Source: Betaproteobacteria bacterium (GTDB lineage: Bacteria; Pseudomonadota; Gammaproteobacteria; Burkholderiales; SG8-41). Taken from it: a DNA stretch of 64,000 bases. Positions within the stretch are counted from its first letter, which is position 1; each line of letters opens with the position of its first letter. The notes beneath the pieces are model-generated. The model was not told the DNA's origin. It searched no databases and worked only from the letters and a program-made list of their open reading frames with translations. Positions 4,734 to 61,157 of this stretch are shown here, piece by piece. A program made the translations under genes and the position numbers. The DNA lies in NCBI GenBank assembly GCA_900299145.1, contig OMIN01000103.1:1-64000 (forward strand), written 5' to 3'.

Positions 4734-4743
4734 CAAATACTTA
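4734..4743 (+). repeat. Dispersed A/T-rich element, core only
   Basis: Core CAAATACTTA directly before the BadI-like start (ATG at 4749), with no other ribosome site. The family consensus is CAATAAAAACARATASTTAY followed by R-A. Confidence 0.55.
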
Positions 4744-4748
4744 AAATC

Positions 4749-5528
4749 ATGGCTTTTCAAACCATTCTGTACGAAGAAGACGGCCCCATCGGCTGGCTGA
4801 CGCTGAACCGCCCTGACGATGGCAACATGTTCACGCCGCAGATGTGTCACGAGATACGCGATTGCATCAACGACATCCGCCGCGAAACGCGCACGCGCGT
4901 GATCGTCATCACCGGGTCAGGTGATAAATTTTTCTGTATCGGCGGACGCAAAGACGGCATGGAAGACACAACGCTCTACGCCGGCATGCTGCCCACGCTG
5001 GAGATCTACGAATCCATCGAAAAGCTGCAAAAGCCCGTAATCGCCATGGTCAATGGCTATGCCGTCGGCGGCGGCCAGGTGCTGCAGGTGATGTGCGACA
5101 TCACGGTGGCCAAGGAAAGCGCGGTTTTCCGTCAGGTCGGCCCGATGATGGGCAGCTTCGACGCGGGCTACGGCACTTGGTACCTCGAAGACCTCGTGGG
5201 CAAGAAGAAGGCCAAGGAAATGTGGTTTGCCAATCCGCGCCTCAGCGCGAAAGAGGCGCTGGAAATCGGCCTCATAAACAAGGTCGTACCTGACGACCAG
5301 TTGAAGGACGAGACCCGCAAGATGGCCCTGGAAATCGCCGACCGCGGCGCCTTCGCGCTTGCGTCATTGAAAGCGGCGTTTACCGCGCGGCATACCGGTG
5401 TCACTGGGTTGGCGCGCGTTTCGCATGATTTGTTGTTGCGTTTGTATCTGGATAGCGATGAGCATACGGAACTTGGCGAATCGTTCCGCGCGAAGCGCAA
5501 GCCGGATAGCTCCAAGTTTGGGCACTGA
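4749..5528 (+). CDS. MenB/BadI-type crotonase (ring-cleaving acyl-CoA hydrolase)
   Basis: A crotonase of 259 residues, not a standard hydratase. Residues 129-141 read QVGPMMGSFDAGY, the SFDAGYG block typical of 1,4-dihydroxy-2-naphthoyl-CoA synthase and of 2-ketocyclohexanecarboxyl-CoA hydrolase (BadI). It is followed by a MenB-like KKKAKEMWF and ends KRKPDSSKF. VNGYAVGGGQ forms the oxyanion region, and the Glu pair of true hydratases is absent. No menaquinone genes are near. A CoA ligase, acyl-CoA dehydrogenase, enoyl-CoA hydratase and SDR follow, so BadI-like hydrolytic ring opening is the better inference. The stop overlaps the ligase start (TGATG). A copy of the intergenic repeat (4734-4743) sits directly before the ATG in place of a clear ribosome site. 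Confidence 0.8.
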   Translation: MAFQTILYEEDGPIGWLTLNRPDDGNMFTPQMCHEIRDCINDIRRETRTRVIVITGSGDKFFCIGGRKDGMEDTTLYAGMLPTLEIYESIEKLQKPVIAMVNGYAVGGGQVLQVMCDITVAKESAVFRQVGPMMGSFDAGYGTWYLEDLVGKKKAKEMWFANPRLSAKEALEIGLINKVVPDDQLKDETRKMALEIADRGAFALASLKAAFTARHTGVTGLARVSHDLLLRLYLDSDEHTELGESFRAKRKPDSSKFGH

Positions 5529-7168
5529 TGTCCACGCTGCTAACCCTTCACAATCCCCGCACCGCCAGGCGTTACTACGATGCAGGCTGGTGGCGCGCGG
5601 AAACCATGTACGCACTTGCCGCGCATCATGCGCATGTGCGGCCCAATGCCCCCGCGCTGCGCGATAGCCGCCATCGGCTGACGTGGGCGCAGTTGGTGCG
5701 CTGGGTCGATGCACTGGCCGCTGATTTACATGCCGCCGGTGTGCGCAAAGGCCAACGGGTTTCGGTGTGGCTACCCAATCGCGTGGAAGCTGTGATCGTG
5801 TTTCTGGCGTGTTCGCGCAACGGCTATGTATGCAACCCGTCGCTGCACCAGAACTATACGGTGGGCGAAATCGTTACGTTGATGGAACGCATCCAGAGCG
5901 CCGCGCTGTTTGCCCAAGCGGGTTACGCCGCGGACGCCACCAAGGTGGATGTGTTTGAGGCGGTCAAGCCGCTGGCGGGCTTGAAGCGTGTGTATCGCAT
6001 GGACGATGGCGCGTTTCCGGCGATGGATGCCTCGTCGACCAATGCGCCACCCGTGGACGACGACCCCGACAAGATCGTCTATCTCGCGTTCACTTCCGGT
6101 ACCACCGGCATGCCGAAAGGCGTGCTGCATTCCGACAACACCCTGCTTGCCAACGGCCGCGCCATGGTGCACGACTGGCATCACGACGACAAAACGGTGC
6201 TCTATTCGATGAGCCCGCTGTCGCACCATATCGCCACGGTGGCCATCGCGCAAAGTCTCGCCGCCGGGTTTGAGCTGGTAGTGAACGACCTCAAGTCTGG
6301 CCAAAAGCCGCTCGACGGCCTGATTGAAACCAATGCGACTTATGTGATGGGCGTGCCCACGCACGCCATCGACATCCTTGCGGACGCCAAGGCGCGCGGG
6401 CGCCAAGATTTGGGCAAGGTCAATCTCTTTTACATGGCGGGCTCGGTGATCCCGCCGGAAACCGCGCGCGCGTTTCTCGACTGGGGCATCAAGCCGCAGA
6501 ACATCTACGGCATGACGGAGAACGGCTCGCACCAATACACCATGCCTGATGACACGGTGGAAATTATCACGACCACCTGCGGACGTGCGTGTCACGGCTA
6601 TGAGACCCGTCTGTGGGATCAGGAAAACCCGGACATTGAAGTCACGAAGCCTGGTGATATAGGCGAAATCGGCACGCGTGGTGCCTTGCTGATGCTGGGC
6701 TACTTCAACAACCAGAGTGCCACGGAAAATTCCTTCAACGCCGGTGGATGGTTCATGAGTGGCGATCTGGGGCGGGTGGATGCGCATGGCAATTTGCAGA
6801 TCGTCGGACGCAAGAAAGACCTCATCATCCGCGGCGGGCACAATATTCATCCGTCGCGCATCGAGAATCTCGCGTTGAAGCACCCGGCGGTGTTGAAGGC
6901 GGCAGCGTTTCCGGTGGCCGATCAGCGTCTGGGTGAGCGCGTGTGCCTGGCGATTATTCAGCGTGAAGGTGTCAGTGTCGCCGGAGACGCGCTGCTCGCG
7001 CATCTAGATCAGGCGGGGTTGTCGAAGTACGACATGCCGGAGTTTTTTATCGCAATGAATGCCTTTCCGCTCACCGCCAGCGGCAAGATTTTGAAGCGTG
7101 AACTGGTGGAATGGACCAAGGCCGGAAAGATCACACCGGCGTCGGTGCGGTGGAAGGCTGGGGCGTGA
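5528..7168 (+). CDS. AMP-forming acyl-CoA ligase
   Basis: A 546-residue adenylate-forming enzyme. The P-loop-like FTSGTTGMPKGVLHS is followed by YGMTENGS (A5), GWFMSGDLGRVD (A7), GRKKDLIIRGGHNIHP (A8) and the C-terminal lysine motif TASGKILKREL. It activates a carboxylic acid with ATP and CoA. Length and context (BadI-, BadK-, BadH- and AliB-like neighbours) fit a cyclohexanecarboxylate- or related alicyclic/aromatic-acid ligase of the AliA kind, but the acid is an inference. ATG 5528 overlaps the preceding stop. The gene ends 13 bases before the hydratase start. Confidence 0.88.
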   Translation: MSTLLTLHNPRTARRYYDAGWWRAETMYALAAHHAHVRPNAPALRDSRHRLTWAQLVRWVDALAADLHAAGVRKGQRVSVWLPNRVEAVIVFLACSRNGYVCNPSLHQNYTVGEIVTLMERIQSAALFAQAGYAADATKVDVFEAVKPLAGLKRVYRMDDGAFPAMDASSTNAPPVDDDPDKIVYLAFTSGTTGMPKGVLHSDNTLLANGRAMVHDWHHDDKTVLYSMSPLSHHIATVAIAQSLAAGFELVVNDLKSGQKPLDGLIETNATYVMGVPTHAIDILADAKARGRQDLGKVNLFYMAGSVIPPETARAFLDWGIKPQNIYGMTENGSHQYTMPDDTVEIITTTCGRACHGYETRLWDQENPDIEVTKPGDIGEIGTRGALLMLGYFNNQSATENSFNAGGWFMSGDLGRVDAHGNLQIVGRKKDLIIRGGHNIHPSRIENLALKHPAVLKAAAFPVADQRLGERVCLAIIQREGVSVAGDALLAHLDQAGLSKYDMPEFFIAMNAFPLTASGKILKRELVEWTKAGKITPASVRWKAGA

Positions 7169-7181
7169 GGAGCAATGTCTG

Positions 7182-7949: not shown

Positions 7950-7966
7950 CGCGTGAGGGGGGAGGC

Positions 7967-8707: not shown

Positions 8708-8746
8708 CGACAGCATTCGTAACCATATAATTTTATTGCTATTTTT

Positions 8747-9913
8747 GTGAAAATATTTGATCGCCTCGACGCCAGCGTCAATTTCGCGTCCGAAGAACGC
8801 CAGTTGATCGATTCCGTACGTGTACTCGCGCGCGACAAGATTGCTCCGCGTGCGACGGCGTACGACAAATCCGGTGATTTTCCGTGGGACAACGTCAAGG
8901 CCATCAACGCGCTGGGCTTGAACGCGATGTTTGTGCCCGAAGCTTATGGCGGCGCGCAGATGTCCTATGCGGCATATCTCGAATGCGTGCGCGAAATCAG
9001 CAAGGCGTGCGCGTCGACAGGCATTATCTGGGCAACCAATTTTCATGCGATGAAGCCGCTGGTCGATTGGGGCAACGAGGAGCAGAAAAGGCGCCTGTTG
9101 CCACGGCTGGCCGAAGGCGCACTGGCCTCGCTGGTGATTACCGAGCCGTCGGCGGGCTCGGACGCCACGGGCATGAAGACTTCTTTCACGCCGGATGGCG
9201 ACGAGATTGTTGTCAATGGCTCCAAGACTTTCATTACCAACGGCGCCCATGCGGACTTGCTGCTGGTGTTTGGCAAATGGAGCGAAATTGCGGACAGCAA
9301 GTCGTCCATCTCCGTGCTGATCATGGAGAAAGGCACACCCGGACTGAAGGTCGTGCGCGAGGAAGACAAGATGGGCTTGCGCGCCTCCAGCACGGCCACG
9401 CTGGCGTTCGACAATTGCAGGGTTCCGCGTGCGAACTTGCTGTGCAAACCTGGTGATGGCCTGAAGATTTTGCTGGCTTCACTTAACAAGTCGCGTCCCA
9501 GCGTGGCGGCGCATGCGCTGGGCATCGCGCGTGCGGCGTTCGAGGAAGCGGTGGATTACATCAACGCGCGCAAGCAGTCGGGCCGCCGAATCGTCGAGTT
9601 TCAGGGCATACAGTTCATGCTGGCGGATATGGCAGCGGAACTTGCACTCACGGAGTCGTGGCTGTGGCATGTGGCGCGCATGGTGGATGCCGGCGCGCAG
9701 GACTTTGGTGTGGAGTCCTCCATGCTGAAAATGCGTGCCTCCGATGTGGCCATGCGCATCACCACGGATGCGGTGCAATTGCATGGTGGTTACGGATACA
9801 TCAAGGATTTCCGCGCCGAGCGGTTGATGCGCGACGCCAAGATCACGCAAATCTGGGAGGGCACCAACCAGATACACCGGCAGTTGATCGGACGCAGTTT
9901 TTTGAAGAAGTAA
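8747..9913 (+). CDS. Acyl-CoA dehydrogenase (AliB-like)
   Basis: A full-length 388-residue flavoprotein. It shows the FAD/substrate motif ITEPSAGSDATGMKT, a helical C-terminal domain with LHGGYGYIKDFRAERLMRDAK, and the catalytic Glu in IWEGTNQIHRQ. It removes two hydrogens from an acyl-CoA and passes electrons to ETF. Beside a BadI-like hydrolase it could be a cyclohexanecarboxyl-CoA dehydrogenase, although branched or short-chain acyl-CoAs are equally possible. The start is GTG 8747 with no ribosome site. The A/T-rich 40 bases before it contain a degenerate, minus-oriented relative of the dispersed element (core 8720-8729). Confidence 0.87.
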   Translation: MKIFDRLDASVNFASEERQLIDSVRVLARDKIAPRATAYDKSGDFPWDNVKAINALGLNAMFVPEAYGGAQMSYAAYLECVREISKACASTGIIWATNFHAMKPLVDWGNEEQKRRLLPRLAEGALASLVITEPSAGSDATGMKTSFTPDGDEIVVNGSKTFITNGAHADLLLVFGKWSEIADSKSSISVLIMEKGTPGLKVVREEDKMGLRASSTATLAFDNCRVPRANLLCKPGDGLKILLASLNKSRPSVAAHALGIARAAFEEAVDYINARKQSGRRIVEFQGIQFMLADMAAELALTESWLWHVARMVDAGAQDFGVESSMLKMRASDVAMRITTDAVQLHGGYGYIKDFRAERLMRDAKITQIWEGTNQIHRQLIGRSFLKK

Positions 9914-9927: not shown

Positions 9928-11040
9928 ATGCAACCGCTCAAAGGTTTAAAGGTTCTGGATTTCAGCACCTTGCTTCCGGGCCCACTGGCAACCCTGATCC
10001 TCGCCGAGGCTGGCGCGGAAGTAATCAAGATCGAACGGCCCGGCCGCGGTGACGAGATGCGCTCGTATGTGCCGAAGTTCGGTGCGGACAGCGTGAACTT
10101 TGCCATGCTTAATCGCGGCAAGAAGAGCATCGCCATTGACTTGAAGGATGCCGCCGCGCGCGAGGCGCTGATGCCGTTGCTGCGCGAGGCAGATGTGGTG
10201 ATGGAGCAGTTTCGCCCTGGCGTGATGGATCGCCTGGGCCTAGGTTACGACGCGTTGGCGAAGATCAACCCGCGCATTATTTATTGCGCGATCACCGGCT
10301 ACGGGCAGACTGGCCCGCGCGCACAAACCGCCGCGCATGACATCAACTACGTGGCCGAGTCCGGCATGTTGTCGCTGGCGGCAGGCGAGGACGGCGCGCC
10401 CATCGTGCCGCCGGCGTTGATTGCCGATATCGGTGGCGGCACCTACCCGGCGGTGATCAATATTCTGCTGGCGTTGCGCGCGCGCGACGCGACGGGCAAG
10501 GGTTGCAAGCTCGACATTGCCATGGGCGACAACCTGTTTACGTTCCTGTATTGGGCCATGGGCAATGGCCTCGCCGCGGGCGAGTGGCCCACGCCGGGCG
10601 GGGACCTGGTTACCGGTGGCTCGCCACGCTTTTACATCTACCGCACGAAGGACGATCGGTTTATTGCGGCAGCACCGCTGGAACAGAAATTCTGGGAGAA
10701 CTTCTGCGAGGCCATCGCGCTGGACGTGCAATACCGCGATGATGCGAAGGATGTGAAGGCTACGAAGCGCGCGGTTGCTGACCGCTTGCGGCAGAAGTCG
10801 GCTGCAGAATGGCAAGCTATCTTTGCCGGAAAGGATTTGTGCTGTTGCGTGGTGGCGACCATGCAGGAGGCGCTCGAAGACCCGCACTTCAAGGCACGTG
10901 GTGTGTTCAGCCGAACGCTGACGGCCAACGGCCGCAGCATTATTGCGCTGCCGGTGCCGGTGGTGGATGCGTTTCGCGCGGGCGGCGCGAGTGCGCAGTA
11001 CCCGTCGCTGGGTGGTGATAATGCAATGCTGAAAACATAA
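9928..11040 (+). CDS. Alpha-methylacyl-CoA racemase-like family III protein
   Basis: A 370-residue CaiB/BaiF-fold protein carrying both racemase-type catalytic residues: His at about 137 in AHDINYVAESG and Asp at about 167 in ALIADIGGG. Their 30-residue separation matches alpha-methylacyl-CoA racemase. It may therefore epimerise the alpha carbon of a branched or alicyclic acyl-CoA rather than transfer CoA. This would be useful if the ring acid arrives as a stereoisomer that the dehydrogenase does not accept. ATG 9928 follows AGAAGAGAGG and lies 15 bases after the dehydrogenase stop. A CoA-transferase role remains possible. Confidence 0.82.
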   Translation: MQPLKGLKVLDFSTLLPGPLATLILAEAGAEVIKIERPGRGDEMRSYVPKFGADSVNFAMLNRGKKSIAIDLKDAAAREALMPLLREADVVMEQFRPGVMDRLGLGYDALAKINPRIIYCAITGYGQTGPRAQTAAHDINYVAESGMLSLAAGEDGAPIVPPALIADIGGGTYPAVINILLALRARDATGKGCKLDIAMGDNLFTFLYWAMGNGLAAGEWPTPGGDLVTGGSPRFYIYRTKDDRFIAAAPLEQKFWENFCEAIALDVQYRDDAKDVKATKRAVADRLRQKSAAEWQAIFAGKDLCCCVVATMQEALEDPHFKARGVFSRTLTANGRSIIALPVPVVDAFRAGGASAQYPSLGGDNAMLKT

Positions 11041-11065
11041 CAAAAACAATTATTTACCTATTCAC

Positions 11066-13034: not shown

Positions 13035-13547
13035 ATGATCTTCAACAGCCAAAGCGCCATCACAGACCCCACGCGCGAGCCTGCGTGGGCCGAATGGTAT
13101 GAAGAACACCTGCGCATCATGGCCACAGTGCCTGGCGTGTTTTCGGCGCAGCGTTTTCTCACCACGCATGTGGGGCATCCGCGCTCGCTGGCCATGTACG
13201 GTGTGGCGAACGCCGACGTGTTCAAGGGCGAGTATTACCTGTCCGTGCGCGGCATGGGCGAGTGGCTGCCACTGATTGACAGGCGCTGGTATAGACGCAA
13301 CCTGTTTGACGGGCTGGCGGTGGCGCCAATCGTCAACAACGATCAGGTGCTGCTCGTGGCCGATCGCAGTGCACCCAATGCCGCGCTCAACATGACCTGG
13401 CTTGCGGTGGCGGGCATCGACCGTTCGACGTCGTATCGCGGCATCGCCGTGGTCAGCAGGCACAATGTGCCCACGGTGCCCGACGACGTGGCAGTGTATG
13501 CGCCGGCTTCACGGCGCCACGTGAACGAGAAAGAAAAAATTCAATGA
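13035..13547 (+). CDS. EthD-like dimeric alpha-beta barrel protein
   Basis: About 170 residues. The start of the fold is seen in EPAWAEWYEEHLRIMATVPG, the W-Y-x-x-H-hydrophobic-x-x-x-P-G signature of EthD/ABM-like proteins, followed by FSAQRF. A related motif occurs twice in the protein at 14584. ATG 13035 is chosen because upstream residues derive from the hairpin region. Its stop overlaps the start of the Bug receptor (ATGA), so the two are translationally coupled. The function is unknown; such proteins often accompany catabolic enzymes. Confidence 0.65.
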   Translation: MIFNSQSAITDPTREPAWAEWYEEHLRIMATVPGVFSAQRFLTTHVGHPRSLAMYGVANADVFKGEYYLSVRGMGEWLPLIDRRWYRRNLFDGLAVAPIVNNDQVLLVADRSAPNAALNMTWLAVAGIDRSTSYRGIAVVSRHNVPTVPDDVAVYAPASRRHVNEKEKIQ

Positions 13548-14503
13548 AAACAATTACTTATATAATTTTCGCGGCGCTGCTGGTGCTGGGCAACACGCAC
13601 GCGCAGCAGTGGCCCGCCAAAACCGTGCGCTGGATCATTCCGTGGCCGCCGGGCGGCGGCGCGGATGTCCTCGCACGCATTTTGCAGCCGTCGTTGTCGG
13701 AAGCGTTGGGCCAACAAGTCGTGGTGGATAACCGCGGTGGCGCGGCCGGCAACATCGGCGCGGAGCTGGCGGCAAAGTCGCCACCCGATGGCTACACCAT
13801 CGTGTTTGCGTATTCGGGCACGCACTCCATCAACCCGCATATCTATCGCAAGATGCCGTTCAAGGAGAGCGACTTCGCACCGCTGATCTGGACGGCATCG
13901 GTGCCGCAGGTCGTGGTGGTGCACCCGTCACTGCCGGTGAAGGCGCCGCGTGACATTGTCGCGCTGGCGAAATCAAAGCCCGATCAGTTCACCTACGGCT
14001 CCAGCGGCAATGGCGCGATCAATCATCCGGCTGGCGCGTTCTTCGCCTCGATTACCGGTGCGCCCATCGTGCATGTACCGTACAAGGGCGGCGGCCCGGC
14101 CGCCATCGCCTTGATGGGTGGCGAGATCGCCATGATCTTTGGCGAGCCCGCCACGGTGATCCAGCACATCAAGGCCGGCAAGATGAAAGCCATTGCGGTC
14201 ACCAGCGCAAGGCGCGCGCTGGCCATGCCCGACCTGCCCACGGTGATGGAGACCGGGATCAAGGGGTATGACGTGACGTCGTGGAACGGCCAGCTCGCCC
14301 CAGCCGGCACGCCGGCCGCCATCGTGCAGCGCTACAACACCGAGTTCAACCGCATCATCGGTACGCCGGAGATGAAAAAGCGCATGATCGACAACGGCTA
14401 TGAGCCCATGGGCGGCCCGGCCGAAAAGTTCGGCGAGCACATCCGCGCTGAAATTGCCAAATGGGCGCCGGTGGTGAAATCCGCGAACATTCGCGTGGAT
14501 TAG
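13544..14503 (+). CDS. Bug/TctC-type periplasmic solute receptor
   Basis: A 319-residue receptor with a signal peptide ending THAQQ. Conserved Bug blocks are IIPWPPGGGADVLAR, VVDNRGGAAGNIGAE, PDGYTI, HVPYKGGGPA and the C-terminal KWAPVVKSANI. It binds a small carboxylate in the periplasm for a tripartite tricarboxylate transporter. No TctB/TctA partner is adjacent. Its start overlaps the EthD-like gene by four bases. The codons for residues 3-6 coincide with a variant of the dispersed element (CAATTACTTA, 13551-13560). Confidence 0.9.
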   Translation: MKTITYIIFAALLVLGNTHAQQWPAKTVRWIIPWPPGGGADVLARILQPSLSEALGQQVVVDNRGGAAGNIGAELAAKSPPDGYTIVFAYSGTHSINPHIYRKMPFKESDFAPLIWTASVPQVVVVHPSLPVKAPRDIVALAKSKPDQFTYGSSGNGAINHPAGAFFASITGAPIVHVPYKGGGPAAIALMGGEIAMIFGEPATVIQHIKAGKMKAIAVTSARRALAMPDLPTVMETGIKGYDVTSWNGQLAPAGTPAAIVQRYNTEFNRIIGTPEMKKRMIDNGYEPMGGPAEKFGEHIRAEIAKWAPVVKSANIRVD

Positions 14504-15688: not shown

Positions 15689-16148
15689 CCGCCTCGGCAT
15701 CAAACACCGAAACACAAAAGCGGCTTACAGCAGGCCCACTGCACCAGTAGGGGCAGTATTACCAGCTAGGTTGGTTCGGGGAAAAGGGGTAGGCTACTGA
15801 CGTATTGCGCGCCAGCCGTACCATTTTGCCCGAAAGGCTGGCGTTGAAAGTCTTTTAAAAGTATTTAAAATCAAACACTTACAGACCTTCTCGCCTTGAC
15901 GTGGCAGGCAGTGTGAGGCAAGTGTGCAGCGGTGCTTTAGCGGTGCTTTAGCGTTGCTGAAGCTATTGCCGCGACAATGGGCACACTGAATGATAAGAAT
16001 GACTAAGGGGCGAGGCGCCGATGTCACGGTGATGCAGCATTATGGCAAGCACGTGGTCTTGTGCCAATGTGTCTGCTGGTGCGCCAGCGCGCGTAAGTTT
16101 GTGAATGGACGAAAACGTCCGCTCGGGGCATCGTAAGGGGAAACGATT
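15689..16148. other. Intergenic region
   Basis: A 460-base gap between the Lys-rich protein and the diguanylate cyclase. It contains a variant of the dispersed element (CAAACACTTA, 15872-15881, plus orientation) and a tandem 11-base repeat AGCGGTGCTTT (15928-15949). The end (about 16134-16139) supplies the purine-rich ribosome site of the cyclase. No credible coding sequence was seen. Confidence 0.6.
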
Positions 16149-17934: not shown

Positions 17935-19968
17935 CTAACGCGCGAACTGCTTGCGCACAGCCTCACTGTTGGCCCACGCCACGTAGCGCTCGATGTCCTC
18001 CTGCAGTAGCAGACGCGAGGGTACCAACGCGGTGGCGGCATCGGTCAACAGCTTTACATACGCAGCGTGTGAACCATAACGCTCTTCCAGCGATGGGCGC
18101 GGATCGCCTCGCGACTCGCGCTCGGCTCGGGTGGCGGCAAACGGGCTGAATGAACCATCGCGGTCGCCCAGTTCGCCTTCGACGTAGGGTGCTTTGTATA
18201 AATTCCAGCCGGTGTAGGTGCCCAGCGGCACGGTAATATCCGGTAACCGGATGCCGGCAATTTCGTTGCCGTCAGCATTGACGTTGGTAATGAGCGGCCG
18301 GTACGGCTTACTCATGTCCATCTCGGGTTTGGTCCAGTCCTTTAGCACGCCAAACACATTTACTTTGCGCGCTATGGCCATGCCGGGGATTGCGGGAAAA
18401 TGCAGTTTCTCCACCGGTACGAGCGTGTTGTCGGCAATGCGCGGCGTTTGCGAAGCGGGCGCGGCTTTGCCGTCGACCCAGTCTGCCAGCGCCAACAGCA
18501 ACGCGCGCATCGCCGGCGTCGGGCTGTGCGGGTTGCGCGGATTGGCGTTGTTGCCCGGCGTCGAGGTCATCCACGCCTGGCCCGCGTGCTGCGTACCGGC
18601 GATGAGATACACGCGCGCGGCATCGGGCAGTGTCACGTCCTTCGTGCCCAGCGGATCGGTGGTGAGCATGGACGCACCTTTCTGCCAGTACTCGGTGGAG
18701 GTATTGCTTTCAAACCACAGCGGGTCGAAGCCGTCGTTGCGCAGGATGCTGTCCGTCTTGCCGGTGACGGGGTCGGTCATGCGCGCGGCGGAAAACGGAA
18801 ATTCGTTCTCCGGCATCATGTGATCCTCGAACTGCGTGCTGGTGCGCCCCGGCTGGCCGAATGCCGCATTGAGAAATACGCCGCCCACGCCGGCGGTGTG
18901 TGAATAGGCGCCGTCAAACACTTTGCGTGCGCGCGTGTCCTGATTGAATCCCTGATACACAAAATCACGCAGGAAACGCCCGCTCTGCGAAATACCAAAG
19001 CCCAGAGCGGCCTTGATGCCGCGCGCCGGGTTGGGTGCACCTTTCGCATCCGTGCTTTCGTATTTCACGAATGAAATCAGATCACGCGTGGCTGCCATGC
19101 CGATGCCCAGCACACGCGGGTCTTTAGCCGGATAGTGAAATTCGTAAATGGAGCCGGTGACGGGTTTTGTGCCTTCCGGCATTAATCGAATCTCGCGGTC
19201 GTTCACGTAGGCCCAGCCGCTCGCGGGAATTTCCTGCCGCGCGTCGGCTTCGCGGCGGCGCACGGTAAGCCTGGCTTGCGATTGATCCATGGTGAACGCG
19301 TTATGCGTGAGGCGAAACGTTTCGCGCGCCGGGCTGCGCGTACCGCTGACGAGCTCGTCGCGTATCACGCGCACGATGGGTTTGCCGTTGTCGCTGGCTA
19401 TGATGGGCTTCATGCCCATGCCGTTGTTGACGCGGGGCGCGTCCGGGTCCCAGCCGCTCCACAATATCGTGTAGCCCATGCGAAACAGCAAGCCGTTGCC
19501 CGCGTCTTCCAGCGTGCGCGGGTCGTTGGCATGCGCGGGCGAAGCCGGGCGCGCGTCCATCAACCGCCAGTGAATGTTTTTGCGCCCGCGATTGGTGACG
19601 TCGTACACCAGTTTGCCGTTGCCGCGCGTGCCGTCGACGGGCCGCAGCATGAAAAAATCCGCTTCGTATTCGATGCGTCCGGCGGCGTTGCGCGGTGCTT
19701 TGTCGAGATTGACGATCACTTTATTGCGCGCGTCGGCGGGATCGAGCTCGCCTTTGACCGTGCCACGCACGCGTTCGTAAGAGCCGGTGTTGCCGAAGGT
19801 TGCGCCATCGGCAAATGGCTCGACGGCGATAATGTTGAATTCAGTGACAGTGGCGGAAGCGGTGTTCATCATGAGCAAGAAGGTTAAAAAGGTCGGAAGG
19901 GTGAGAAGCGTTGAAAGCGCCGGAAGGTTCGGTAACAGCCGAAAACGTGGCAGGCGAGGGATTTTCAT
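17935..19968 (-). CDS. Secreted alpha/beta-hydrolase-domain protein
   Basis: A 677-residue exported hydrolase. Signal peptide to about residue 39 (MMNTASA), then an Abhydrolase_10-like fold with the nucleophile elbow GISQSGRFLRDF near residue 327. An esterase or lactonase acting in the periplasm or outside is likely; the substrate is unknown. The start is MKIPRLPRF at 19968, since upstream in-frame residues overlap the ABC permease. The start codon is embedded in a copy of the intergenic repeat (CAAATAGTTATG on this strand), without a ribosome site. Confidence 0.78.
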   Translation of the reverse strand: MKIPRLPRFRLLPNLPALSTLLTLPTFLTFLLMMNTASATVTEFNIIAVEPFADGATFGNTGSYERVRGTVKGELDPADARNKVIVNLDKAPRNAAGRIEYEADFFMLRPVDGTRGNGKLVYDVTNRGRKNIHWRLMDARPASPAHANDPRTLEDAGNGLLFRMGYTILWSGWDPDAPRVNNGMGMKPIIASDNGKPIVRVIRDELVSGTRSPARETFRLTHNAFTMDQSQARLTVRRREADARQEIPASGWAYVNDREIRLMPEGTKPVTGSIYEFHYPAKDPRVLGIGMAATRDLISFVKYESTDAKGAPNPARGIKAALGFGISQSGRFLRDFVYQGFNQDTRARKVFDGAYSHTAGVGGVFLNAAFGQPGRTSTQFEDHMMPENEFPFSAARMTDPVTGKTDSILRNDGFDPLWFESNTSTEYWQKGASMLTTDPLGTKDVTLPDAARVYLIAGTQHAGQAWMTSTPGNNANPRNPHSPTPAMRALLLALADWVDGKAAPASQTPRIADNTLVPVEKLHFPAIPGMAIARKVNVFGVLKDWTKPEMDMSKPYRPLITNVNADGNEIAGIRLPDITVPLGTYTGWNLYKAPYVEGELGDRDGSFSPFAATRAERESRGDPRPSLEERYGSHAAYVKLLTDAATALVPSRLLLQEDIERYVAWANSEAVRKQFAR

Positions 19969-19977
19969 AACTATTTG
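19968..19977 (-). repeat. Dispersed element overlapping a start codon
   Basis: On the minus strand CAAATAGTTATGAAA: the core merges with the ATG of the secreted hydrolase. Upstream it is AATTAAAT rather than the usual AATAAAAA. Confidence 0.6.
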
Positions 19978-19984
19978 ATTTAAT

Positions 19985-21337
19985 TCATTTTTTCGTTGAC
20001 GCTTCGCCGTCCTGTGCATGCGTGGTTTGCCAGCGCCACCAAGCCAGTGAGATGGCGACGCCCGCATGGATCAGCATGATACCCGTTGCCAGCGCCGGTT
20101 TTGTGAAGAGCGGCGGGAGCACAAGGTCGGCCATGGCATCCGCGCCCGCCGCCTTCAACAACCCCGGCAGCAGCCCGTAGAGCAGCACCAGATAAAACAC
20201 CGTGGCGGCTTCGACGCGGCGCGGCTGGCGTGCCAGTGCAAAGAACTGAAAGAGGGCCGCATCGCGCAGCGCGAACAGCATGACCGCGACCGGCGCCAAA
20301 CCGACTTCGTGCAGGAACGAACCCTTGCCGCCGCCCGCCGAGGTAAACGTTGCGCCGACGGCAAAAATCAAACCGCTTGCCAGCGCCACCAGCCACAACG
20401 GCAATTCCTGCAATGCGCGCCGCCACTGATTGCTGTTCACACGCACGCGCAGACGCTGCCACGTTGCCGCGCCACTACTTTCGGCAAACAGCATGAGATA
20501 GGTAAAGCCCCCGGCGATCACCACGCCGCAGGCGAAAACGCCGAACAGCGCTCGCGGGTCCGTGGTGTTGCAGCGCATGGCAAAGCCGGCAAAGTACGCG
20601 GCGGCAAACCCCATGAACGCCGGCAACGCCCACGGCGTGGTGCGTATCTCCAGCGCGTTGCACATCGAACGGTACGCGCCCAACAGTGCCCACGCGGCAA
20701 ACGCGGCCGCCGTGCCCAGCAGAAAATCCAGCTGCGGCACGGCCATGCCCCACCAGCGGATGGATTTGCCGATGCTGCCCATTACCATCGTGCCCGGTCC
20801 CGCCATCAGCATCAGCAGCATCAGGAATATCAGCACGCCGGAGCCGCGATAGTTGACGTTCTTGCGCGCCGCCAGCACACCGGCGTTCAGCGCGATGGCG
20901 TGCAGCAGAATTGCGATCGCCACCATCAGCGCAGCGAGCCGCAGCACCGGCCATTTGCCGTCGGCGCTGCCCGCCGCAAGATAAATTGCCAGCAGAATGC
21001 CACCGCCGTACCATGCAAACGCTGGCGCGCCGATAAGCTTGCCCCATGTCATCGACCACGGGCCGATGGCCGACATACGCTGCGCGTCCCAGGTGCGGTC
21101 GCGCGCTTCGTCCATCACGCTGGCGCCGGCGAGCTGCGTTCCCCACAGCAACACCGTGGCCACGAAACCTGTGCCAGCCGCGCCGGTGAGAATTTCCAAT
21201 GAGTCCTTTTCGCTGGCGGCCAAGATCAACGCCGCGCACAGTGCGATCACCAGGGGCGCGGCCAGCAGGCGGTGCAGCGTGAGTTCCAGCCACAGATTGC
21301 GGCGCAGTTCGGGATTCGTGATGGATACGAGTTTCAC
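19985..21337 (-). CDS. ABC-2 type transporter permease
   Basis: About 450 residues with many hydrophobic helices, for example LLAAPLVIALCAALILAA and GVLIFLMLLMLMAGPGTMVM, and no ATPase motifs. GTG 21337 (VKLVSITNPELRRNL) overlaps the stop of the ATPase gene by four bases, which sets both start and coupling. Together they form a two-gene ABC exporter of unknown substrate. Longer in-frame starts inside the ATPase gene are rejected. Confidence 0.8.
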   Translation of the reverse strand: MKLVSITNPELRRNLWLELTLHRLLAAPLVIALCAALILAASEKDSLEILTGAAGTGFVATVLLWGTQLAGASVMDEARDRTWDAQRMSAIGPWSMTWGKLIGAPAFAWYGGGILLAIYLAAGSADGKWPVLRLAALMVAIAILLHAIALNAGVLAARKNVNYRGSGVLIFLMLLMLMAGPGTMVMGSIGKSIRWWGMAVPQLDFLLGTAAAFAAWALLGAYRSMCNALEIRTTPWALPAFMGFAAAYFAGFAMRCNTTDPRALFGVFACGVVIAGGFTYLMLFAESSGAATWQRLRVRVNSNQWRRALQELPLWLVALASGLIFAVGATFTSAGGGKGSFLHEVGLAPVAVMLFALRDAALFQFFALARQPRRVEAATVFYLVLLYGLLPGLLKAAGADAMADLVLPPLFTKPALATGIMLIHAGVAISLAWWRWQTTHAQDGEASTKK

Positions 21338-24143: not shown

Positions 24144-25127
24144 ATGAAAAATATAATAAAAACAATTGGTTACATAACCTTGTTGCAGGCGGTGCCGTGC
24201 CTTGCCCTAGACGCCGTGACTGGCGCGCAAAATTTCCCCAACCGCCCCATCCGCTGGATCGTGCCCGCGCCGCCGGGTGGCGGCACCGATGCCGTGTCGC
24301 GCATCATGGCGCCACGACTCACTGAACTGTGGAAGCAGCAGATCGTCATTGACAACCGCGGCGGTGCGCAGGGCAGCATCGCCACCGCGCTGGCTGCGAA
24401 AGCAGCACCCGATGGCTACACCATACTCTTCGGCTTTTCCGGCCCACTGGCGGTGAACCCGCACATATTCAGTGAAGTGGGTTACGACGTGGCGCGCGAC
24501 TTCGCGGGCTTGACGCGCTACACGCAACAGCCGATGGTGATGACCGCGCATCCGGCGGTGGCGGCGAACTCGTTCAGGGAACTTGCCACGCTCGGCAAGA
24601 GCAACCCCGGCAAATTTACGTTTGCCTCCAGCGCGTCGCTGCAACATCTGGGCGGCGAACTGTTCAATATCGCGGCGGGGGTGAAATTGACGCACGTGCC
24701 ATACAAAGGCGCGGGGCCGGCGGTGATCGACGTGCTGGCGGGCAATGTCAGCACCATGATTTCCAACCCGACAGCCGTGGTGCCGCACATCCGCACCGGC
24801 AAGTTGAAGGCGCTGGGCATCCTCGGCGGGCAGCGCATCGACGTGCTCAAAGACGTGCCCACGGCGGTGGAGCAGGGCTATAAGGAATTCGCCGACGTAA
24901 TCGAGTGGTACGGCATGGTTGCACCCAAAGCCACGCCGCGGTCAATCATCAATCAACTCAACGCGGGCCTCACCAAAGTGCTGATGCTGCCCGAAGTGCA
25001 GGAACGCATCCGCGCGCTGGGCATGACGCCATCACCCACCACGCCGGAGGAGTTTGATAAACAGATACGGGCGGATCATGCGCTGTGGGGTAGGGTGGTT
25101 AGGCAGGCGGGGGTGAAGGCGGAGTAG
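24144..25127 (+). CDS. Bug/TctC-type periplasmic solute receptor
   Basis: A 327-residue protein: signal peptide, then IVPAPPGGGTDAVSRIMAPR, VIDNRGGAQGSIAT, PDGYTILFG and HVPYKGAGPA. It has no membrane partners nearby. It is divergent from a 3-hydroxybutyrate-dehydrogenase-like SDR, which suggests a hydroxy-acid ligand. ATG 24144 follows GCGAAGG. The first codons themselves form a relative of the dispersed element (ATAATAAAAACAATTGGTTA), so the signal peptide starts MKNIIKTIGY. Confidence 0.9.
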   Translation: MKNIIKTIGYITLLQAVPCLALDAVTGAQNFPNRPIRWIVPAPPGGGTDAVSRIMAPRLTELWKQQIVIDNRGGAQGSIATALAAKAAPDGYTILFGFSGPLAVNPHIFSEVGYDVARDFAGLTRYTQQPMVMTAHPAVAANSFRELATLGKSNPGKFTFASSASLQHLGGELFNIAAGVKLTHVPYKGAGPAVIDVLAGNVSTMISNPTAVVPHIRTGKLKALGILGGQRIDVLKDVPTAVEQGYKEFADVIEWYGMVAPKATPRSIINQLNAGLTKVLMLPEVQERIRALGMTPSPTTPEEFDKQIRADHALWGRVVRQAGVKAE

Positions 25128-25218: not shown

Positions 25219-26271
25219 CTACAGCGAAAGCGCGCTTTCGAGTCCAGTCTCCTTCGCAATCCGCTTCAAATCTGCCATCGTATCCTCCGGCAGCGTCAGT
25301 CCTTCGCGCCGCAGCTTCGCATCACTGTTGTTCTCCATCTCGCCCGGATAAAACACTTCGTTAAATCCCTTGGCGAGCGGTACGGATTTGATTTCCTGCG
25401 TGAACGCCTGCATGCGCGCACAGAACTGTTCGAGCGGCTGAAACTTGCTGATGTCCATGGCAATCATCAGGTGACCACAATTGGATTTCTCGGCGGTCTT
25501 GTAGGGGCTGTGCACCGCCGATAGAAAGCCACTGCCGGTCAGCACGCCGGACATCATGTCCACCATGGCGGCGATGGCGTAGCCTTTGTGTTCAGCCATG
25601 GGCAGGATGATGCCGTCGATGGCTTCCTGCGGGTCGGTCGTCGGTGCGCCGTCTTTGTTGATGGCCCAGCCCAGCGGAATCGGCAGATTCTTATTCTTGG
25701 CAAGATAAATCTTGCCGCGTGCCACACCGGTGGCGGCCATGTCCACCACGAACGGGGCGCGCGTGCCATCCATGGCGACGGGCGCGGCCACTGACCAAGG
25801 GTTGGTGCCGACGATTTTCTTGCGCCCGCCCCAGGGCGCCATCGCCGGGCCGCCGTTGCTGGTGAGCATGGACACACAACCCGCAGCCGCCACGCGCCGC
25901 GTGTAATACATGCACGTGCCGAAGTGGTTGGAGTTGCGCACGGCCACCGCGCCGATACCATGCGCTTTCGCGCGTTTGATGGCTTCAGTCGTGGCGAGCA
26001 TCGCCGCTACATGGCCCACGCCGTCGTGCGCATCAATGACAGCGATTGCACCCGCATCAACCACGAACTCCGGCGTGGTGACCGGCTTCATCACGCCGTT
26101 GCGAATGCGGTCGAGATACCAGCCGAGCCGCAGCACACCATGCGACTGGTGGCCCCACAAATCGGCTTGCACCAGCGTGTCAGCGACGAGGCGTGCGTCG
26201 GCTTCGGGCACGCCCGCCTGCGCATAAACAGCGGTGGCGAAGTCGATCAGCTTTTCAGCATCAATAGCCAT
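25219..26271 (-). CDS. Malate/L-lactate dehydrogenase family (Ldh_2) oxidoreductase
   Basis: A 350-residue NAD(P)-dependent enzyme of the malate/ureidoglycolate/sulfolactate group. SHGVLRLGWY contains the family His, and AVAVRNSNHFG and GTNPWSVAAP are cofactor/substrate blocks. It oxidises a 2-hydroxy acid. The start MAIDAEKLIDFA at 26271 follows directly on a repeat copy with no ribosome site (CAAATACTTACAATG on this strand). The upstream minus-strand isopropylmalate-dehydrogenase-like gene ends 27 bases away, so both may share a transcript. Confidence 0.87.
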   Translation of the reverse strand: MAIDAEKLIDFATAVYAQAGVPEADARLVADTLVQADLWGHQSHGVLRLGWYLDRIRNGVMKPVTTPEFVVDAGAIAVIDAHDGVGHVAAMLATTEAIKRAKAHGIGAVAVRNSNHFGTCMYYTRRVAAAGCVSMLTSNGGPAMAPWGGRKKIVGTNPWSVAAPVAMDGTRAPFVVDMAATGVARGKIYLAKNKNLPIPLGWAINKDGAPTTDPQEAIDGIILPMAEHKGYAIAAMVDMMSGVLTGSGFLSAVHSPYKTAEKSNCGHLMIAMDISKFQPLEQFCARMQAFTQEIKSVPLAKGFNEVFYPGEMENNSDAKLRREGLTLPEDTMADLKRIAKETGLESALSL

Positions 26272-26292
26272 TGTAAGTATTTGTTTTTATTG
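26272..26292 (-). repeat. Dispersed element, full copy
   Basis: The minus strand reads CAATAAAAACAAATACTTAC, then AATG: the dehydrogenase start follows at once. Confidence 0.75.
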
Positions 26293-26297
26293 ATATT

Positions 26298-30327: not shown

Positions 30328-30344
30328 TGACCAGAACAAAAAAT

Positions 30345-30366
30345 CAATAAAAACAAATAGTTACAG
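30345..30366 (+). repeat. Dispersed element, full copy
   Basis: CAATAAAAACAAATAGTTAC, 22 bases before the VOC gene start. Confidence 0.75.
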
Positions 30367-30388
30367 AAAGCACAATACAGGATCATTC

Positions 30389-35897: not shown

Positions 35898-35972
35898 TAA
35901 AGGCGGTTTGTCCGGGGTTGGTGGCATAGCCAAAGGCAACTAGAAGTCTGTTTTCAGGAATCAATAAAACAT

Positions 35973-35996
35973 CAATAAAATCAACTAGTTATAATG
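35973..35996 (+). repeat. Dispersed element, variant copy
   Basis: CAATAAAATCAACTAGTTAT followed by AATG, which opens a 12-codon ORF; the amidohydrolase starts 53 bases on. Confidence 0.65.
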
Positions 35997-42011: not shown

Positions 42012-42032
42012 GTTGCGACTTTTAATATAAGT

Positions 42033-42056
42033 CAATAAAAACAGATAGTTATAATG
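42033..42056 (+). repeat. Dispersed element, full copy
   Basis: CAATAAAAACAGATAGTTAT followed by AATG, the start of the possible leader peptide of the MmgE/PrpD gene. It also reads as a TATAAT box. Confidence 0.75.
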
Positions 42057-43545: not shown

Positions 43546-43561
43546 CTTATTTAAAATAAAT

Positions 43562-43583
43562 CAATAAAAACAAATAGTTACGA
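43562..43583 (+). repeat. Dispersed element, full copy
   Basis: CAATAAAAACAAATAGTTAC 16 bases after a stop codon and antisense to the small basic ORF; the next plus-strand gene starts 423 bases away. Confidence 0.75.
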
Positions 43584-43668
43584 AGCTGTTGCAGAGGCGG
43601 GCAGGTAGGGCGGAACGCAAAGCGGTTCCGCCGCTTGCCAGACCAATACCAATTGCCTGCCGAGCCTG

Positions 43669-45710: not shown

Positions 45711-45804
45711 GGTATTTCTCCTTGGTTGGCGGGATGGTGCAGCGCGGGTTGAGATTTGCATCCGCACCGCGAATGGTGCAATCGACAGTGGCTTTTAAAT
45801 AAGT

Positions 45805-45828
45805 TAATAAAAACAGATAGTTACGATG
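45805..45828 (+). repeat. Dispersed element, full copy
   Basis: TAATAAAAACAGATAGTTAC followed by GATG, opening a 10-codon ORF upstream of the Bug receptor at 45937. Confidence 0.75.
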
Positions 45829-48202: not shown

Positions 48203-48209
48203 GAGGGTT

Positions 48210-48230
48210 TATAAGTATTTGTTTTTATTG
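48210..48230 (-). repeat. Dispersed element, full copy
   Basis: CAATAAAAACAAATACTTAT on the minus strand, seven bases before the MFS start. Confidence 0.75.
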
Positions 48231-48271
48231 ATATTTTTAAATAGAGGCGAAGTGGTGAAATTTTTAGTCTT

Positions 48272-49387: not shown

Positions 49388-49666
49388 GTAGCGGTTCCTT
49401 GAGTGTACTTGTCAGATTTCAGTTATCTACCGCCCGGCACGTTAGCGCTCGCTCGTTGTTGCGTCAATCGAGCGGAGAAGTCGGATAACTATCTGTTTCT
49501 AAAATGGAAAATTTAGCCAGTTCATGCCGCTGCTGGGGTGGTTGTTCGATACCCGCCCGCACGTGTATAGTTCGCGGGCTTTTGAGGAGGGCCATACGCA
49601 AGCGCAAGTGCGCTGGGTGCGGCGTTAACTGTCAAAATAAGCAGTCAAATAAGGAGAGAATAAAAC
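49388..49666. other. Divergent promoter region of the AKR and TerC genes
   Basis: A 279-base gap. It contains a minus-oriented repeat copy (49486-49495), a small hairpin AGCGC-AAGT-GCGCT near 49604, and the ribosome site AAGGAGAG before TerC. TerC genes of this type are often preceded by a yybP-ykoY manganese riboswitch. I looked for its conserved core here and did not find it. Confidence 0.4.
49486..49495 (-). repeat. Dispersed element, core copy
   Basis: CAGATAGTTA on the minus strand with AGAAA upstream, 98 bases before the aldo/keto reductase start. Confidence 0.65.
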
Positions 49667-50877: not shown

Positions 50878-50884
50878 CTGATAC

Positions 50885-50905
50885 GATAAGTATTTGTTTT
50901 TATTG
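50885..50905 (-). repeat. Dispersed element, full copy at a 3' end
   Basis: CAATAAAAACAAATACTTAT on the minus strand, between the Usp stop and the bidirectional terminator; no gene starts downstream of it. Confidence 0.75.
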
Positions 50906-50938
50906 GAAAAACCGCTGGGTTTGCCCGGCGGTTTTTTT
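50905..50938. terminator. Bidirectional intrinsic terminator
   Basis: Stem ACCGCTGGG (50911-50919) and CCCGGCGGT (50924-50932), a TTTG loop, seven Ts after it and an A-run before it, so it works from both sides. It also overlaps the stop codon of the minus-strand antiporter. Confidence 0.85.
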
Positions 50939-52385: not shown

Positions 52386-52731
52386 TGGGGTGTGGCGTAG
52401 CCTTGGGTATAAGACCTGCGCAAAGTGTTGTGCCGCTAAGGTGAAATCGCGAGGGTCGCCGGCGCAAATAACTAAAATCGTAAGAATATTGTAACTATCT
52501 GTTTTAATTAACTTTTGTATTTAGGTTACTACTTTTAGCTTAAGGGAATAAATTGATGGCGGTCAATGTTTTGCGGTAGTGAAATGGGCATGATATGTGG
52601 ACTTAAAAGAATCATAAGACATCATAAGTAGTAGCAGGAAGAACCAAAAAACGTAAGAAAAAACAAAGTATAGCCGGGCGTGACATCCGTCATGTTTGGC
52701 TGGTTCATGGAATTTTCGAGGAGGAGTCATC
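52386..52731. other. Divergent A/T-rich gap before tctCBA
   Basis: 346 bases, much richer in A/T than the genes around it. It contains a minus-oriented repeat copy (52492-52501), a partial inverted pair TTACTACTTTTAGCTTA and ATAAGTAGTAGC (about 52526 and 52624), and GAGGAGGAG before tctC. It probably holds the promoters for the antiporter and the tct operon; no gene was seen. Confidence 0.5.
52492..52501 (-). repeat. Dispersed element, core copy
   Basis: CAGATAGTTA then CAAT on the minus strand, 106 bases before the antiporter start. Confidence 0.65.
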
Positions 52732-57672: not shown

Positions 57673-57841
57673 GTCGAAAGGCCTCGCGTTAAGCGGTCGT
57701 TTGCACTGGGGAGTTACGGGCCGCCGGAAGGCGCGCTGGGCAATTGCGGCAGCGCGCGAATTCCGAGGCAATATTAAATCCAGAGTATCTTAGGCGTGGC
57801 GGGCGCGGGCACCCTTGATCCCGGTCAATTTTCACATTGGC

Positions 57842-58450: not shown

Positions 58451-58481
58451 GGTGGCAGCAGCAATAGAGGCCAAGATTTTA

Positions 58482-58491
58482 TAACTATCTG
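58482..58491 (-). repeat. Dispersed element, core copy
   Basis: CAGATAGTTA then TAAAAT on the minus strand, 31 bases before the Crp-like start. Confidence 0.65.
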
Positions 58492-58700
58492 TTTCTAAAG
58501 TAAATTTTTGGCAAGGATTCTTGACGTGGGTCATGGTTTCACAATCCGCCATTACCTATAGTTGCGCCCTCGCAAATCAGGGTAAAGCAAGGCGCAAATC
58601 GCAAATCGCTGTTTCCCACGCCACCAACGCATCTGTTGCAGGTGCCTATCTGGCGCAAATGGCGCCGCTCGCCTTACACTTCACGCTTCACGGAGGAGCT

Positions 58701-59966: not shown

Positions 59967-60053
59967 CTTCGTTTTCGCCACGGATGAACACAGACCGACA
60001 CGGATTAACTCGGCGCGGGCAAACTACGATGGTTTGTGTTGATCTGTGGTTTG

Positions 60054-60063
60054 TAAGTATCTG
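60054..60063 (-). repeat. Dispersed element, core copy
   Basis: CAGATACTTA on the minus strand in the gap between frc and the formyl-hydrolase gene, both plus strand, so it is not upstream of a co-oriented gene. Confidence 0.6.
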
Positions 60064-60083
60064 AATTTAAAGGATTTTAAATC

Positions 60084-61016
60084 ATGAAGATAGCCATCAT
60101 TGGGCAGCAGGATTTCGGTAAAGCCGTGCTCGACGCTTTTCTCGCGCGCGGTGATGAGGTTGCCGGTGTATTTTGCGCGCCGGAAAAGCCCGGAGCCAAG
60201 GCCGACCCGGTGCGCGCGGCGGCGGAAGAAAAAAAGCTCAAGGTGTTCCAGTTCAAATCGCTGCGCGATCAGGAAGCGCATGACGCGCTCAAAAGCTTGA
60301 ACGTTGATTTGGGCATCATGGCGTATGTGTTGCAGTTTGCACCGGATACCTTTGTGCATCTACCGCGGCTGGGTACGATTCAGTATCACCCGTCGCTGCT
60401 GCCGAAATATCGCGGGCCGTCGTCGATTAACTGGCCGATCATGCGCGGCGATACCAAAACGGGTCTGACCATTTTCCGTCCGAACGAGGGGCTCGACGAA
60501 GGCCCGGTGGTGCTGCAAAAAGAATGTGCCATTGGCCCGGACGACACGCTGGGCGATGTCTATTTCAATCATCTGTTTCCGCTGGGCGTGAAAGCCATGC
60601 TGGAAGCGGCCGATCTGGTATTCGCCGGTAAACACACCGAGACCGTGCAGGATGAGTCGCAAGCCAGTTACGAAGGTTGGTGCCGCACCGGTGAGTCGCG
60701 TATCCATTGGGCGAACCACGTTGATTCGGTTTACAACATGATCCGCGGCTGCAACCCGGCGCCGGGCGCGTGGACCATGCTCAATGGCAAGAAAGTGCAG
60801 ATATTCGACGCCATAAAGCATCTTTTCCGCCGCTTTGCCGATGTGGCCGGGAAAATGGGCGAAGTATCGGCGGTCAATGACAAGAGTTTCCGCATCACCG
60901 CACAAGGCGGCACGATCGAAGTCCTGCGCGCGCGCGGCGAGGACGGCAAAAAGATTTCGGGCGGCGATTTTGCCAAGGCCAACGGCATCGCCAACGGCAT
61001 GGTGTTTGATGCCTGA
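60084..61016 (+). CDS. 10-formyl-THF hydrolase-like formyltransferase-fold protein
   Basis: A 310-residue protein aligned in order with the N-terminal hydrolase domain of 10-formyltetrahydrofolate dehydrogenase: MKIAIIGQQDFGKAVLDAF, YHPSLLPKYRGPSSINWPI with the catalytic His, and NEGLDEGPVVLQKE with the catalytic Asp, then an Fmt-like C-terminal domain. It may split 10-formyl-THF to THF and formate, or act on another formyl carrier. It is not a normal Fmt and no tRNA-modifying partner is near. Directly behind frc, it may balance the formyl/formate pool during oxalate use. Confidence 0.82.
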   Translation: MKIAIIGQQDFGKAVLDAFLARGDEVAGVFCAPEKPGAKADPVRAAAEEKKLKVFQFKSLRDQEAHDALKSLNVDLGIMAYVLQFAPDTFVHLPRLGTIQYHPSLLPKYRGPSSINWPIMRGDTKTGLTIFRPNEGLDEGPVVLQKECAIGPDDTLGDVYFNHLFPLGVKAMLEAADLVFAGKHTETVQDESQASYEGWCRTGESRIHWANHVDSVYNMIRGCNPAPGAWTMLNGKKVQIFDAIKHLFRRFADVAGKMGEVSAVNDKSFRITAQGGTIEVLRARGEDGKKISGGDFAKANGIANGMVFDA

Positions 61017-61092
61017 TTGAATCGTGGTCGTTTCAAGCGGGGTGTCTGATTGATGCTGTAGTTGCCGCAAACCGGACGGTCAGTTGCCGTTC

Positions 61093-61123
61093 AAAAAAAG
61101 CCATGCCTTGCATGGCTTTTTTT
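61093..61123 (+). terminator. Intrinsic terminator
   Basis: Arms GCCATGC (61100-61106) and GCATGGC (61110-61116), a three-base loop, seven As before and seven Ts after. It ends the frc/formyl-hydrolase unit. Confidence 0.9.
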
Positions 61124-61136
61124 GGTACGAGGTATT

Positions 61137-61157
61137 TATAAGTATTTGTTTTTATTG
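61137..61157 (-). repeat. Dispersed element, full copy
   Basis: CAATAAAAACAAATACTTAT on the minus strand, just past an intrinsic terminator; no minus-strand gene is downstream. Confidence 0.75.

Follow-up and report, generated by a model that had tools for sequence, protein, structure and literature searches.

Which function could account for a short AT-rich sequence that recurs between the genes of a bacterial chromosome of 60% GC? This question was raised by the first 64,000 nt of contig OMIN01000103.1 (GenBank assembly GCA_900299145.1, Betaproteobacteria bacterium, order Burkholderiales; hereafter, the window), in which an element with the 10-base core CARATASTTA had been noticed at 14 places. 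The original prediction offered a promoter class, a regulator site, a translation-start element, or a tiny mobile repeat; a DNA uptake sequence was not among its proposals. Here, we describe the element as a candidate DNA uptake signal, comparable with the uptake signal sequence (USS) of Pasteurellaceae and the DNA uptake sequence (DUS) of Neisseriaceae and with a sequence of its own. We regard this reading as probable; preferential uptake, the receptor that would mediate it, and the drive that would maintain the element are all deduced from genomic pattern.

The element is abundant and pairs a near-fixed core with two A/T tracts

All 14 exact cores were confirmed at the predicted positions, and the estimate that chance would give fewer than one was borne out by 100 shuffles of the window (mean, 0.05; maximum, 1). 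The exact core occurs 958 times in the 5.51-Mb genome (483 and 475 by strand), compared with 16 occurrences (8 + 8) of the same pattern written backwards. A 34-bp weight matrix, seeded on exact cores and trained by iteration on the window plus 400 kb of the same genome (464 kb; the discovery set), detected 133 sites at the 22-bit cut-off used for all statistics, or 28.7 per 100 kb, versus 1 with the reversed matrix. In 399 kb kept out of matrix training (the hold-out), the corresponding numbers were 117 and 1, and the density, consensus, orientation, and spacing of the discovery set were repeated. Exact cores that scored below the cut-off and were left uncounted numbered 2 out of 78 in the discovery set and 2 out of 74 in the hold-out. 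The five contigs with no listed exact core are all shorter than 5 kb; two consist of N and two contain matrix matches. The mean interval between elements in the sampled sequence is 3.4 kb, and extrapolation of the sampled density gives roughly 1,600 copies genome-wide.

Alignment of the 78 exact cores in the 464 kb revealed a longer shared pattern, comprising an A/T tract (−17 to −12), YAATAAAAA (−9 to −1), the core, and then Y followed by weak A/T. The predicted A-rich left half is therefore present, but the conserved part extends further, with a second A tract ~11 bp upstream of the first. The two A/T tracts beside the core are centered near −4 and −15, i.e., about one helical turn apart; the core is near-fixed and the flanking tracts are degenerate. 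Read on the other strand, the element consists of a TAASTATYTG core with one A/T tract adjoining its 3′ end and another ~11 bp further; in this reading, CTG is confined to cores of the minority G type. No known RNA family or tRNA was found in the window, and we found no described family that matches the element, which supports the original prediction of a real dispersed element outside any described family.

Copies lie mostly between genes and in either orientation

Genes were called by a custom script based on open reading frames and hexamers, not by a standard gene finder. Among the 133 discovery sites, 98 were intergenic, 21 lay no more than 60 bp from a called gene end, and 14 were deeper inside genes, so that the claim of a location in gaps or at start codons is largely but not entirely correct. 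Specifically, intergenic DNA had 17.6 copies per 10 kb, compared with 4.3 in the 60 bp next to gene ends and 0.39 for gene interiors (16.9, 1.7, and 0.5, respectively, in the hold-out); the core is thus neither equally common inside genes nor absent outside the window, copies being found genome-wide. Some interior copies match strong intergenic ones in score (e.g., 48 bits in L042 and L047), and in places the element supplies the opening codons of genes that, by reading, resemble secreted receptors. Median distances to stop codons (26 and 34 bp) are shorter than those to start codons (54 and 109 bp).

A promoter class or regulator site would agree with an AT-rich, mostly intergenic element whose right end (TAYRAW) resembles a −10 box and some copies of which abut start codons, and such a site would be expected to face genes. 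Strictly intergenic copies, however, were placed with co-directional genes, against them, in divergent gaps, and in convergent gaps in 20, 17, 15, and 9 cases in the discovery set and in 12, 22, 21, and 7 cases in the hold-out. When pooled, 32 copies were oriented with and 39 against co-directional genes, and 16 out of 123 were in convergent gaps. The predicted tendency to point toward the next gene is therefore missing from strictly intergenic copies and appears only when gene-edge copies of the discovery set are included (53 with, 26 against); this lean is a point in favor of a promoter or regulator, but we think that it may reflect which reading frames tolerate the element. Because unoriented copies and copies in convergent gaps contradict the expected gene-facing arrangement, the promoter role fails and the regulator and translation-start roles are poorly supported, and the copies inside genes and the proximity to stop codons likewise make a promoter or regulator site highly improbable. 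A sigma-70-type promoter was rejected in particular, as the element does not face genes and is present in convergent gaps.

Spacing along the chromosome is more even than expected

To evaluate spacing, an equal number of copies was put in distinct random junctions. The coefficient of variation of the discovery intervals was 0.59 (0.86 expected), with 13 out of 125 intervals shorter than 1.5 kb (38.9 expected), and none of 3,000 simulations was as even; the hold-out gave 0.56 (0.85 expected), 16 out of 110 short intervals (35.7 expected), and none of 5,000 simulations. Two exact cores in one junction were found in 0 of 386 junctions (6.8 expected). An element-free stretch of L048 (~6.2–19.8 kb) contains ordinary-looking genes, as judged by eye from protein starts. 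Uptake sequences would be expected to be depleted from recently acquired DNA; in 88 kb near integrase matches, we found 15 elements, and the longest empty stretch there resembles a flagellar operon.

Neighboring copies were on the same strand in 118 out of 237 pairs, i.e., there was no strand autocorrelation, and the strand of the 250 copies was not significantly associated with local GC skew (p 0.31) or with the direction of nearby genes (p 0.20). A replication- or recombination-polar motif like Chi or KOPS, both of which are polar, would also be genome-wide and over-represented; the lack of strand autocorrelation and of a GC skew link makes this extremely improbable, and replication polarity was rejected on these grounds.

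The main rival to an uptake signal is a chromosome-architecture protein, because even, unoriented, A-tract-phased sites also fit it. The element could be the binding site of a sequence-specific, non-directional nucleoid protein, with the ~1,600 even sites setting loop or bend spacing; even spacing, lack of orientation, and intergenic preference would all agree with this, and phased A tracts would suit a bending protein. To our knowledge, no nucleoid protein recognizes a site of this kind, which we count against this rival. The even spacing of uptake sequences was itself once read as chromosome organization (Karlin et al., cited in PMC1939737).

Perfect cores outnumber singly mismatched ones

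We found 0, 1, and 2 core mismatches in 76, 34, and 13 of the 133 discovery sites and in 72, 26, and 11 of the 117 hold-out sites. Seeding with exact cores biases the matrix toward an excess of perfect ones; sites chosen from its left half and a following CA, a selection that lessens but does not remove this bias, gave 59, 22, and 7 in the discovery set and 51, 21, and 8 in the hold-out. Raw single-mismatch 10-mers exceeded the reversed control only slightly (58 versus 51, and 60 versus 44 in the hold-out). A surplus of perfect copies over those with a single mismatch is described as puzzling, as common to USS and DUS, and as unlike the relaxed sites of regulatory proteins (PMC1626085), and it therefore also argues against a nucleoid-protein site.

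The element shares its layout with USS and several genomic features with both known systems

USS consists of a core, an AT-rich motif just 3′ of it, and a second motif further downstream, whose center in the Hin type lies 12 positions on; both USS and DUS display regular spacing, no orientation, a preference for non-coding DNA, and an excess of perfect copies (PMC1626085). The element resembles the Pasteurellaceae USS (Hin type, AAGTGCGGT; Apl type, ACAAGCGGT) in having a 9- to 10-bp core with two 3′ A/T tracts about a helical turn apart, as well as in its perfect-copy excess, lack of orientation, regular spacing, non-coding preference, and subclade variants (PMC1626085). In contrast to USS, its TAASTATYTG core is AT-rich, within a genome of 60% GC and in another bacterial order. 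With the Neisseriaceae DUS it shares clade-specific core variants, permissive locations, perfect-copy excess, and regular spacing (PMC3630211, PMC2397512, PMC1626085). However, DUS has no flanking tracts and forms one continuous motif, with CTG as its constant inner part, whereas the element has phased tracts and most of its cores lack CTG; DUS often occurs as inverted pairs (PMC3630211), whereas no junction here holds two exact cores. Pasteurellaceae USS or Neisseriaceae DUS proper was rejected as an identity for the element, given that the constant inner core of either (GCGG or CTG) does not fit CARATASTTA/TAASTATYTG.

If the element is an uptake signal, a cell-surface receptor, probably a type IV minor pilin, would bind double-stranded DNA carrying it and help bend that DNA into the outer-membrane pore. 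ComEA and ComEC, for which gene matches were found (see below), would then import the DNA, and DprA with RecA would recombine it. DNA with a better element would be taken up more often, so that recombination would restore the perfect core. Such restoration would lead to more perfect than near-miss copies, to copies in the least constrained locations and in either orientation, and to an even spread, as in the pattern described above. The same process may underlie the core variants of relatives and the lack of elements in a lineage without detectable ComEC and DprA.

The element is nearly confined to one family

Exact cores numbered 112 to 958 in 13 of the 14 genomes of the same genus; the exception, G066, had 19 versus 41 for the control, as well as 0 matrix matches in 77 kb. 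In other genera of the family, we counted 295 (g3, one genome), 14 to 200 (g5), and 20 to 35 (g2), with g4, g6, g7, g8, and g9 at or near background. Relatives within the genus carry core variants. Among 399 genomes of the order, a 19-bp form of the element was present in 10 out of 12 family members and occurred once each in 3 of the 387 others. The element is thus nearly confined to one family of Burkholderiales. A 23-bp form was found in 44 public stretches (L100–L143), all titled as metagenome-assembled genomes of betaproteobacteria or Burkholderiales or, in 25 of the 44, of Bordetella parapertussis. The latter titles look wrong because at least one such series coincides with G069 of the same genus (L111 and L114 versus G069:C50 and C217).

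Scans of 8-mers in 87–100 kb each of the element-free genomes G007 (g4), G035 (g7), G045 (g8), and G055 (g9), all of them small samples, uncovered no element-like counterpart. Five top 8-mers were checked (two from G055 and three from G007), and both from G055 and GGGAGATC from G007 were mostly in local clusters. Another of those checked, TCGATCAC, occurs 31 times in 87 kb of G007 (L177–L181), 29 times on one strand and often ~1 kb apart; it is possibly a feature of repeated paralogous genes.

Transformation genes accompany the element within the genus

ComEC matches were found in 68 of the 74 family genomes and in 13 of the 14 of the same genus, and DprA matches also in 13 of the 14. ComEA was above the cut-off in 12 of the 14, being absent in the incomplete G062 and below the cut-off in G070. 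The genome that contains the window matches ComEC, ComEA, and DprA. G066, which is 97% complete, is the sole congener without elements and also the sole congener without both ComEC and DprA matches. This coincidence is consistent with an uptake signal and speaks against a nucleoid-protein site, which we consider unlikely overall.

Orthologous sites show no precise insertion

Dispersed, strongly conserved copies, numerous and nearly restricted to one clade, could also be those of a tiny mobile repeat, non-autonomous and inserting into intergenic gaps. After removal of duplicate contigs, we made 24 comparisons with relatives at 10 elements of the genome, based on BLAST alignments at ~75–85% identity, which are biased toward alignable sites. 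In 20 of the 24, the element was common to both. The other four fall at three sites, three of them at two coding sites. Specifically, ordinary codons face the element of L042:1005 in mid-protein in G065 (by hand reading, the alignment gaps cancel and the proteins stay in register), and ordinary codons lie opposite that of L045:18317 at a protein C-terminus in both G064 and G065. The fourth, L045:11868 versus G069, has a gap of 15 bases at the element; this case is ambiguous and could favor insertion. At all three non-shared sites, the element is present in one or more further relatives. Precise insertion was thus seen in none of the 24 comparisons, apart from the ambiguous gapped case, the direction of change not being polarized. 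The replaced codons at the two coding sites, the combination of a near-fixed core with degenerate flanks (a mobile repeat would be expected to be alike over its whole length), and the overly even spacing also count against a mobile repeat, which we judge very unlikely.

Relatives mostly retain the element in matching places, with substitutions in the core, as two elements of the window illustrate. For the element with its core at 42042, G062, G069, and G073 have element-like sequences with substituted cores in the matching gap (in G073, only beside the upstream gene), and for that at 43571, G062 carries CAAATACTTA in the matching place.

Observations that weigh against an uptake signal

Several findings weigh against a DNA uptake signal. 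First, the element is sparser than USS and DUS, at one per 3.4 kb versus the published density of about one per kb, and, unlike USS, it has few gene-interior copies (14 out of 133 in the discovery set and 15 out of 117 in the hold-out). The co-directional lean of gene-edge copies and the seeding of the matrix on exact cores, both described above, belong here as well. Second, orthologous cores are only modestly better kept than their flanks, and the A/T half is not better kept: identity between orthologues was 0.82 for the core, 0.77 and 0.72 for the flanks, 0.76 for the A/T half, and 0.67 for the bases that directly follow the core, in a set of pairs that includes duplicate contigs and window-edge misses. 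Third, the absence in G066 is a single case, in a genome of 48% GC that aligns poorly to the window and retains a ComEA match above the cut-off. Fourth, the element and ComEC do not track each other strictly, because the element-free genera (g4 and g6–g9) mostly retain ComEC and no ComEC match was found in the element-bearing g5 genome G010, which has 46 exact cores at 91% completeness. Finally, every one of the nine genera has ComP_DUS-type pilin matches (PF16732), whether or not it carries the element, so that these matches are not discriminating for a receptor; in the genome under study, such a match lies at G000:C69:44563–44844.

Regarding G066 itself, its placement in the same genus despite 48% GC and poor DNA similarity calls for caution about that placement or about the history of the genome. 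As for the pilins, a ComP-type pilin that separates element-bearing from element-free genera was considered and rejected, owing to the presence of PF16732 in all nine. Pilins extracted by an N-terminal motif from the 30 loci listed, out of 63 matching genomes, did not include the match of the genome under study.

Individual copies in the window

At ≥18 bits, the window contains 23 elements. Those with exact cores on the (+) strand are at 4715–4748 (core at 4734–4743, 37.7 bits), which fills the gap between two co-directional genes; 30335–30368 (core at 30354–30363, 49.8 bits); 42023–42056 (42042–42051, 46.1 bits); 43552–43585 (43571–43580, 51.1 bits); and 45795–45828 (45814–45823, 46.6 bits), the last in a divergent gap. 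On the (−) strand, exact cores belong to the elements at 19963–19996 (core at 19968–19977, 45.7 bits); 26269–26302 (26274–26283, 49.5 bits), which again fills the gap between two co-directional genes; 48207–48240 (48212–48221, 53.2 bits); 50882–50915 (50887–50896, 32.4 bits), in a convergent gap; 52487–52520 (52492–52501, 45.9 bits); 58477–58510 (58482–58491, 38.9 bits); 60049–60082 (60054–60063, 36.1 bits); and 61134–61167 (61139–61148, 49.9 bits). A weak element at 49481–49514 (−), with its exact core at 49486–49495, scores 21.5 bits, just below the 22-bit cut-off. By eye, a terminator-like inverted repeat directly adjoins the element in the convergent gap (50882–50925).

The four variants of the original prediction, with cores at 8720, 15872, 32330, and 35982, also score as elements: 8715–8748 (−; core TATATGGTTA, 31.6 bits), 15853–15886 (+; CAAACACTTA, 34.6 bits), 32311–32344 (+; CAGATGGTTA, 33.6 bits), and 35963–35996 (+; CAACTAGTTA, 41.6 bits). 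Five more variants, all on the (+) strand, reach at least 18 bits: 2080–2113 (CAAGGAGTTA, 33.9 bits); 11028–11061 (CAATTATTTA, 27.4 bits), which is also in the relative L143; 13532–13565 (CAATTACTTA, 47.8 bits), which overlaps the first codons (MKTITYI) of the called gene at 13544–14503; 24144–24177 (CAATTGGTTA, 43.7 bits), which is the start (MKNIIKTIGYI) of the called gene at 24144–25127; and a weak element at 61288–61321 (CAGTTAATTG, 25.5 bits). The elements at 13532–13565 and 24144–24177 thus double as first codons of genes that, by reading, resemble secreted receptors, and their cores are not of the commonest form.

Two other features of the window were recorded. A partial phage-type integrase match (PF00589) lies at 10–228 (−), the very start of the contig, and several integrase matches of the genome are near contig ends. 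At 61604–63916, the window encodes a protein of 770 aa that matches a Ser/Thr kinase (PknB-like) in its C-terminal residues 488–759 and has a long N-terminal part outside the best match.

Implications of a probable uptake signal in Burkholderiales

A somewhat bolder conclusion, which we hold to be reasonably likely, is that the element represents a third uptake sequence system, carried by an uncultured family of Burkholderiales; it would be the first beyond Neisseriaceae and Pasteurellaceae and, apparently, would have arisen separately. This system would combine an AT-rich core with the Pasteurellaceae layout of two phased A/T tracts, vary its core among congeners, and have disappeared in one lineage that also lost ComEC and DprA. 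Among the open-access literature matches listed, the titles and abstract openings contained no report of the motif and none of uptake sequences in Burkholderiales, which is not proof of absence. Neisseriaceae may belong to the same order in the GTDB taxonomy, and the element and DUS may therefore have a remote common origin.

If this reading is true, the element would be a mark of self-recognition for own-kind DNA, so far described from only two bacterial families. A third clade would mean that self-marking of DNA arose more often than thought, and the recurrence of a core with phased tracts would make that layout probably mechanical. Since the family includes element-bearing genera, element-free genera, and congeners with core variants, their comparison could separate molecular drive from selection for DNA of kin.

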